Source: an uncultured Candidatus Saccharimonas sp. (GTDB lineage Bacteria > Patescibacteriota > Saccharimonadia > Saccharimonadales > AWTP1-31). Taken from it: a stretch of 36,277 bases of DNA. The position numbers were made by a program, and so were the translations under genes. Shown piece after piece: positions 4,729-6,664 of the stretch (its first letter is position 1; every line of letters starts with the position of its first letter). The stretch lies in NCBI GenBank assembly GCA_943354005.1, contig CALRBE010000004.1, forward strand, positions 68,600 to 104,876, read 5' to 3'. Under the pieces are notes generated by a model. It ran no database searches. It was not told the DNA's origin and worked only from the letters and a program-made list of their open reading frames with translations.

Positions 4729-6012
4729 ATGCAACTAAAACTTACACAGAACACACCAACCAATATCACTCTATCGATTACTGCAGATGCAGAAAATCTA
4801 AAAAAAATTAAAGAAAAAACAGTAAAACAATTCAATACTACGAGCCTTAAGATACCTGGCTTTCGTCCCGGTAAAGCTCCTCTTGAAGTAGTTGAAAAGA
4901 ATGTAAACCAACAAGAGTTACAATCTGCTTTTATTGATGCTGTATTAAACTTTTACTACGTTCAGGCAATGACAAAAGAAAATATTCGCGTTGTTAGCGA
5001 ACCGACAGTTGACCTTAAGAAGTTCGTACCTTTCGACACTTTTGAATTTACAATTACAGTAGATGTACTTGGCGACGTAACACTTGCTGACTACACAAAG
5101 ATTAAGAAGACAAAAAAGACTCCAACAATTACTGAAAAACAAGTCAATGAAGTCATTGAATCACTACGTGCCCGCGTTAGCGATAAGAAGGCAGTTGAAC
5201 GTCCTGCTAAAGACGGTGATGAAGCAGTCATTGATTTCACCGGTGTAGACGATAAAGGTAAAGCAGTACAAGGAGCGGAAGGTAAGGCATATCCACTAGC
5301 TCTTGGTAGCAAGGCATTTATTCCAGGCTTTGAAGAAAATATCATCGGCGTAAAGATTGGTGAAGAAAAAACCTTTACAATACCATTTCCAAAAGATTAC
5401 TCAGTAGCTGCATTACAAAGCAAAAAAGTTACCTTTACTATTACCCTTAAAGAACTAAGTGAACTCTCTCTACCTAAAGTAGACGATGAATTTGCGGCTA
5501 AAGTAGGACCTTTTAAATCTCTTGCAGATCTTAAGGTAGATATTAAGAAACAGCTTGGCTTAGAAAAACAGAACGAAATTGACCGTGAATTCGAAACTGA
5601 ATTACTTCGTGACATTGCATCAAAATCTAAAGTTGCTATTCCTGAATCAGTTATAGATAATCAGGTTCTTCGCGCCGAAGAAGAAGAAAAGCAAAATATC
5701 GTATATCGCGGTCAGACATGGCAAGAGCACCTCGACGCTGAGGGAGTTACAGAAGAAGAGCATCGCAAGAAGAACCGTAAGGATGCCGAAGAACAAGTTA
5801 AAATTGGTATCATCATTGGTGCTATCGGTGACAAGGAAGATATTAAAGTTGATCCAGAAGAACTTGAACTACGCATTCAACTACTCAAAGGACAATACCC
5901 AGATCCAGCAATGCAAGCTGAGCTAGATAAGCCAGAAGGCCGACAAGACATCGCCTCACGTTTGCGTAGTGAAAAAATTATTCAAAAGATTACTGAATAC
6001 ACTTCGAAGTAG
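4729..6012 (+). CDS. tig: Trigger factor (ribosome-associated chaperone/prolyl isomerase)
   Basis: Binds L23 near the polypeptide exit tunnel and shelters nascent chains. The ribosome-docking signature GFRPGKAP is at about residues 44-51. The FKBP-type prolyl-isomerase domain spans roughly 150-245 (GDEAVIDFTG, then FIPGFEENIIG). The helical C-terminal substrate-binding arms fill the rest, ending IIQKITEYTSK. At 427 aa it is the usual size. Its docking partner L23 is encoded at 21675. It is directly upstream of clpP, the common tig-clpP order, but with a separate promoter for clpP; clpX does not follow. Confidence 0.96.
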   Translation: MQLKLTQNTPTNITLSITADAENLKKIKEKTVKQFNTTSLKIPGFRPGKAPLEVVEKNVNQQELQSAFIDAVLNFYYVQAMTKENIRVVSEPTVDLKKFVPFDTFEFTITVDVLGDVTLADYTKIKKTKKTPTITEKQVNEVIESLRARVSDKKAVERPAKDGDEAVIDFTGVDDKGKAVQGAEGKAYPLALGSKAFIPGFEENIIGVKIGEEKTFTIPFPKDYSVAALQSKKVTFTITLKELSELSLPKVDDEFAAKVGPFKSLADLKVDIKKQLGLEKQNEIDREFETELLRDIASKSKVAIPESVIDNQVLRAEEEEKQNIVYRGQTWQEHLDAEGVTEEEHRKKNRKDAEEQVKIGIIIGAIGDKEDIKVDPEELELRIQLLKGQYPDPAMQAELDKPEGRQDIASRLRSEKIIQKITEYTSK

Positions 6013-6016
6013 TCTT

Positions 6017-6043
6017 TTAGCAGTCTTGACATGTGAGTGCTAG
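6017..6043 (+). promoter_or_regulatory. CIRCE-like operator (HrcA site) at clpP promoter
   Basis: TTAGCAGTC (6017-6025), exactly 9 nt, GAGTGCTAG (6035-6043). The CIRCE consensus is TTAGCACTC-N9-GAGTGCTAA, so each arm has one mismatch. The 9-nt spacer contains the clpP -35 hexamer, so a bound repressor would block RNA polymerase directly. Known for groE and dnaK operons and some clp genes; HrcA itself is not in this window. Confidence 0.8.
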
Positions 6044-6054
6044 CATTCTACACT
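6026..6054 (+). promoter_or_regulatory. clpP promoter (leaderless)
   Basis: Perfect TTGACA (6026-6031), 17-nt spacer and TACACT (6049-6054). The ATG is 7 nt further on (6062) with no Shine-Dalgarno. The -35 box lies inside the CIRCE-like operator. Confidence 0.85.
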
Positions 6055-6061
6055 TTATTCT

Positions 6062-6664
6062 ATGAATACAACAAAAGCATCAACACTTATTCCTACAGTA
6101 ATTGAAAGTGACGGAAGAATTGAGCGTGCCTACGACATATATAGTCGTTTATTAAAAGATCGCATCATCTTTTTAGGCGATGCCGTTAATGAGCACACCG
6201 CTAATTTAGTCGTAGCTCAACTTCTATTCCTCCATTCCGAAGATCCAAAAAAAGATATCAGTTTATATATTAATAGCCCTGGTGGAAGTGTCTATGACGC
6301 CCTAGCTATCTACGATACTATGCAATACATCTCTAATGACATACAGACACTAGGTATTGGCATCCAAGCCTCTGCGGCAGCCTTTCTATTAAGCTCAGGA
6401 ACTAAGGGTAAAAGAGTAATCCTACCAAACGCGACTGTTATGGTACACCAGCCAAGTAGTGGCACAAGAGGTAAGGTTACGGACATGGAGATTGATCTTA
6501 AAGAATCACTTCGAATCAAGCTTCGATTAAATGAGATTATGGCTAAAAATACTGGTCAAACGCTAAAGCGCATCCAAGAAGATATGGAACGAGACTATTG
6601 GATGACTGCTGAAGACGCTAAAAAATACGGTCTTGTTGACAGCATCATTAAAACTCTTAAATAA
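6062..6664 (+). CDS. clpP: ATP-dependent Clp protease proteolytic subunit
   Basis: Serine peptidase that forms a barrel with an AAA+ unfoldase (ClpX or ClpC, not in this window). The catalytic triad is complete: S104 in [10 protein letters not shown]129 in MVHQP and D178 in ERDYW. Ser-His (25) and His-Asp (49) spacings equal those of E. coli ClpP. The oxyanion strand NSPGG is at 71-75. The nucleophile elbow reads QASAAA rather than the common AASMGA. At 200 aa it is full length, with a short N-terminus and no obvious propeptide. Expression is predicted to be heat-shock or proteostasis controlled through the CIRCE-like site. Confidence 0.96.

Follow-up and report, generated by a model that had tools for sequence, protein, structure and literature searches.

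The window (the whole 36,277-nt stretch of Candidatus Saccharimonas DNA analyzed here) carries the trigger factor gene, tig, followed closely by clpP. Only 49 nt separate the tig stop from the clpP ATG, and this gap holds both a CIRCE-like dyad, which is a predicted binding site for the repressor HrcA, and a candidate promoter (Table 1).

Table 1. Features of the tig-clpP region, in window coordinates.
Feature	Coordinates	Strand	Remarks
tig (trigger factor)	4729..6012	+	5' of the operator; Pfam Trigger_N, FKBP_C, Trigger_C
CIRCE-like operator, predicted HrcA site	6017..6043	.	Arms 6017-6025 and 6035-6043, loop 6026-6034; 2/18 mismatches
-35 box TTGACA	6026..6031	+	Within operator loop; promoter scan
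-10 box TACACT	6049..6054	+	17 nt past -35 box; promoter scan
clpP, 200 aa, predicted leaderless start at 6062	6062..6664	+	Pfam CLP_protease, 259.6 bits

The predicted operator and promoter of clpP

The dyad reads TTAGCAGTC (6017-6025), TTGACATGT (6026-6034) and GAGTGCTAG (6035-6043). Measured against the CIRCE consensus used here, TTAGCACTC-N9-GAGTGCTAA, it agrees at 16 of 18 positions around a loop of exactly 9 nt. The initial annotation had described one deviation per arm and an exact spacer, and this is what we find: the left arm has G for C at position 7, and the right arm ends in G instead of A. Between the two arms, 7 of 9 positions are complementary. The range originally assigned to the element (6017-6054) spans both the operator, which stops at 6043, and the -10 box.

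The same annotation placed a perfect TTGACA in the spacer, which is indeed where it lies. In a consensus scan of the tig-clpP gap, TTGACA-17-TACACT is the sole promoter, with 10 of 12 positions matched. The dyad is followed by CATTC, the TACACT box, TTATTCT and then the ATG of clpP, so that 7 nt separate the end of the -10 box from the start codon. Counted from the operator to the ATG, the region measures 45 nt, in agreement with the figure of about 45 nt first given for the whole regulatory region. No ribosome-binding motif precedes this ATG. Given the short distance from the -10 box and the lack of such a motif, we predict a leaderless clpP transcript. Transcription would begin at the ATG or a few bases from it at most, so that clpP mRNA from this promoter would not include the operator.

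CIRCE sites across the source genome

HrcA matches among public genomes assign the window to Candidatus Saccharibacteria. With up to three mismatches allowed, the window has no CIRCE match other than the clpP dyad, and shuffled sequences give an expectation of 0.01. At the same threshold, a genome-wide scan of the 752-kb source genome returned exactly five CIRCE-like sites and none for the reversed pattern, and all five sites lie upstream of proteostasis genes. Beyond clpP, one precedes the hrcA ATG by 9 nt (L001 1159), two lie 48 nt apart at dnaK (L001 2404 and 2452), where the initial annotation had suggested looking, and one is found past nusA and ahead of a clpC-like gene (L002 1501). The loop of the first dnaK site contains TTGACA. 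At clpC, a promoter read by eye has TTGCTT in the CIRCE loop, 17 nt from TATTAT. Fifteen related genomes yielded 85 forward matches with at most two mismatches, and the reversed pattern matched nowhere in them. With 0.01 matches expected in the window and empty reversed-pattern controls in the source genome and all 15 relatives, we reject a chance match.

The dnaK pair (L001 2404-2478) is arranged with one site around the -35 box and the other beyond the -10 box, and its 47-48 nt spacing is seen again in six relatives (L017, L018, L021, L025, L029 and L036).

The five source-genome operators have two to three mismatches each, and in every one of them exactly one arm reads GCAG where the consensus has GCAC. 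These imperfections could mean that the clpP dyad is a former CIRCE, now too degenerate to function, and that clpP is constitutive in this genus; in Spiroplasma melliferum, CIRCE copies with three or more mutations are regarded as decaying (PMC5138195). The clpP operator, however, has two mismatches and so falls inside the limit for functional sites in that study. Moreover, a second species of the genus (L012) has a letter-identical 27-nt clpP site although the neighboring sequence has diverged, and the GCAG variant is present too in relatives that retain stronger sites. We therefore consider decay of the operator improbable.

The variant also occurs at hrcA and dnaK in two further genomes (L017 and L018), whose HrcA proteins are 99% and 89% identical. 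An alignment of 18 HrcA proteins contains no change private to the genus in the recognition region VSSATIRSEM; it thus gives no backing to an altered HrcA specificity, and we leave the variant unexplained. A link to loss of GroEL is likewise unsupported, since two genomes (G136 and G145) have the variant yet keep GroEL.

Conservation upstream of clpP

Comparison of clpP upstream regions among relatives, proposed as a check in the initial annotation, shows the dyad ahead of the gene at 57 of 60 additional loci from the order (up to four mismatches, most with none to two). The exceptions are G232, G223 and G075 (L096, L099 and L103). Other orders of the class have it at 9 of 23 clpP loci; the remaining 14 lack it, though most of those genomes have HrcA. 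Outside the class, a small sample of 30 loci from elsewhere in the phylum showed no CIRCE at clpP.

The placement of the promoter within the operator is also retained. TTGAC falls inside the 9-nt loop at 41 of the 57 dyad-bearing loci of the order, against 0.36 expected from loop composition, and 28 of these 41 promoters have a -10-like box at 17-nt spacing. The position of TTGAC in the loop is not fixed: its offset is 0 in 23 loci, 4 in 14 and 2 in 4. As the -10 box shifts along with these three offsets, operator and promoter each appear to be under selection. That the -35 box and the operator stay together despite a changed register is strong evidence, at the level of sequence, that both are functional. 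The first ATG is mostly 4-11 nt past the -10 box in the 41 promoters, which makes leaderless clpP starts look widespread. A smaller number of these promoters have longer leaders, and in some of those a ribosome-binding motif is present.

A short HrcA in a genome without GroEL

Whether the genome encodes HrcA had been raised as a check on the operator, and it does (gene at L001 1195-1905). The 236-aa product matches PF01628 at 73.5 bits (cut-off 22.2) and the winged-helix family PF03444, and its winged-helix part is close to that of Thermotoga maritima HrcA (phmmer E 3.5e-19). Full-length HrcA has three domains and about 340 aa. The source protein is not of this kind; its match to the 215-position C-terminal Pfam model is confined to positions 105-215, and it scores 185.5 bits with the NCBIfam HrcA equivalog model, below the cut-off of 197.2. 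A structure prediction had a mean pLDDT of 41.6 and was set aside. HrcA proteins of about 235-250 aa, some 100 residues below the 338-residue T. maritima protein, are seen across the class and in other classes of the phylum.

A different repressor reading the same dyad could in principle have replaced HrcA, and a short HrcA together with the loss of GroEL would leave room for such altered biology. Yet hrcA bears the dyad itself, HrcA is retained in 238 of 245 class genomes, and its winged helix is close to that of the T. maritima protein. A search of 147 class genomes turned up no CtsR, though it was a weak one: its control matched Lactococcus only and missed Bacillus subtilis, which has CtsR. 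Replacement of HrcA is thus very hard to credit.

GroEL is the usual partner and modulator of HrcA, and groESL is the most constant CIRCE target elsewhere. GroEL is absent from the source genome; it is present in 213 of 245 class genomes, and the 32 without a match include some single-contig assemblies. Two of the GroEL-free genomes, each a single contig (G074 and G079), have a clpP dyad with perfect arms, and two others (G106 and G143; loci L116 and L102) have the clpP dyad as well. HrcA and CIRCE persist without GroEL in the source genome and in GroEL-free genomes of the class.

The HrcA proteins of B. subtilis, Chlamydia and Campylobacter are aided by GroE, and that of Campylobacter additionally senses heat directly (PMC8533110). 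Given this precedent and the absence of GroEL, direct sensing or another chaperone is the likely route in the source genome. HrcA probably either responds to heat itself or receives the signal from a chaperone such as DnaK.

Predicted control of clpP by HrcA

The sequence of the operator, its conservation, the set of CIRCE-bearing genes and the presence of hrcA are established directly. The operator is positioned to suit a block to transcription, as it surrounds TTGACA 17 nt upstream of TACACT in a layout that is conserved. We consider it very likely that 6017-6043 is a working HrcA operator through which HrcA blocks the clpP promoter as part of a shared heat-shock switch; hrcA presence and conservation of the dyad support the control of ClpP by HrcA that the initial annotation had predicted. 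From these features we infer HrcA binding, promoter occlusion, heat induction and the clpP start site. An HrcA dimer on the dyad would cover the -35 box in the operator loop and exclude RNA polymerase from the promoter. Heat or unfolded protein would disable HrcA, and clpP would come on together with clpC, hrcA-grpE and dnaK. In this way, a single repressor could govern both the chaperones and the ClpCP protease. That the dyad is instead an RNA element, either a tig terminator or a clpP leader hairpin, is most improbable: its arms can pair into a stem in single strand, but its fold energy is ordinary (z = -1.22), a terminator scan was negative, the predicted clpP transcript begins past it, unrelated genes have the same dyad upstream, and its arms track the HrcA consensus beyond mere base pairing.

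Relation to known HrcA/CIRCE systems

The predicted system shares much with the class I HrcA/CIRCE regulon of B. subtilis and many other bacteria, including the consensus, the 9-nt spacer, the hrcA-grpE and dnaK targets, and an hrcA gene that bears its own operator. It differs in that clpC and clpP also bear CIRCE, with the -35 box in the loop, in an HrcA about 100 residues shorter, and in the absence of GroEL from the source genome. CIRCE starts 3-4 nt past the transcription start in Lactobacillus plantarum (PMC1676014) and covers the start site in Campylobacter jejuni (PMC7464140), whereas at clpP it is the -35 box that occupies the operator loop. A further parallel is dnaK of Lactococcus lactis, which is cited in PMC1676014 as having two CIRCE copies that overlap the promoter. 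The gene differs from clpP, but CIRCE overlaps promoter elements in both systems, and dnaK of the source genome also has two copies.

Proteases have been placed under CIRCE before. Streptococcus salivarius clpP is controlled by CtsR and HrcA (Chastanet and Msadek, 2003, as cited in PMC3842655). On that cited account, HrcA control would be common to both systems, being a prediction in Saccharibacteria; CtsR acts in S. salivarius and was not found in the Saccharibacteria class in our weakly controlled search, and the arrangement in Saccharibacteria is clade-wide. In Mycoplasma pneumoniae, CIRCE lies ahead of lon, downstream of the trigger factor gene (PMC7737663). That bacterium likewise has a reduced genome and a quality-control protease gene beside tig under CIRCE; there, however, the protease is Lon rather than ClpP, and GroEL is present. 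Given the S. salivarius clpP and Mycoplasma lon precedents, we regard the Saccharibacteria clpP operator as a variant and not as a new kind of control.

Saccharibacteria are tiny parasites that live on other bacteria and have very small genomes. We found no paper on HrcA or on heat-shock gene control in these organisms in the open-access literature. With high confidence, we propose a clade-wide HrcA/CIRCE variant that takes in the Clp protease, its function being predicted from sequence. The prediction is of one repressor for chaperones and ClpCP, acting at compact promoters with the -35 box inside the operator. More tentatively, and with slightly less than an even chance in our estimation, this and several other Saccharibacteria lineages may have a merged chaperone and Clp-protease HrcA regulon without GroEL, in which a shortened HrcA or another chaperone senses the signal, unlike GroE titration. 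Lineages with good CIRCE sites but without GroEL offer a natural test of HrcA's need for GroE.

The predicted regulon in relatives

In relatives, CIRCE is found upstream of clpP and, among the sites fetched, of hrcA, dnaK, dnaJ, groES, clpC, hsp20 and ftsH; dnaJ, groES, hsp20 and ftsH were identified from protein starts and BLAST, without a family scan. Some groES promoters (L179, L180 and L183) have a CIRCE loop with a -10-like TATAGT or TATTAT and no -35 box. Two loci from other classes of the phylum (L191 1501 and L193 1501) have CIRCE-like sites ahead of a gene with a protein start similar to that of an RpoD-type sigma factor. Finally, a contig titled Chlamydiae bacterium (L034) has an hrcA of the Saccharibacteria type, 73% identical, and CIRCE and TTGAC are laid out there in the same way; the record is therefore probably mislabeled or mis-binned.
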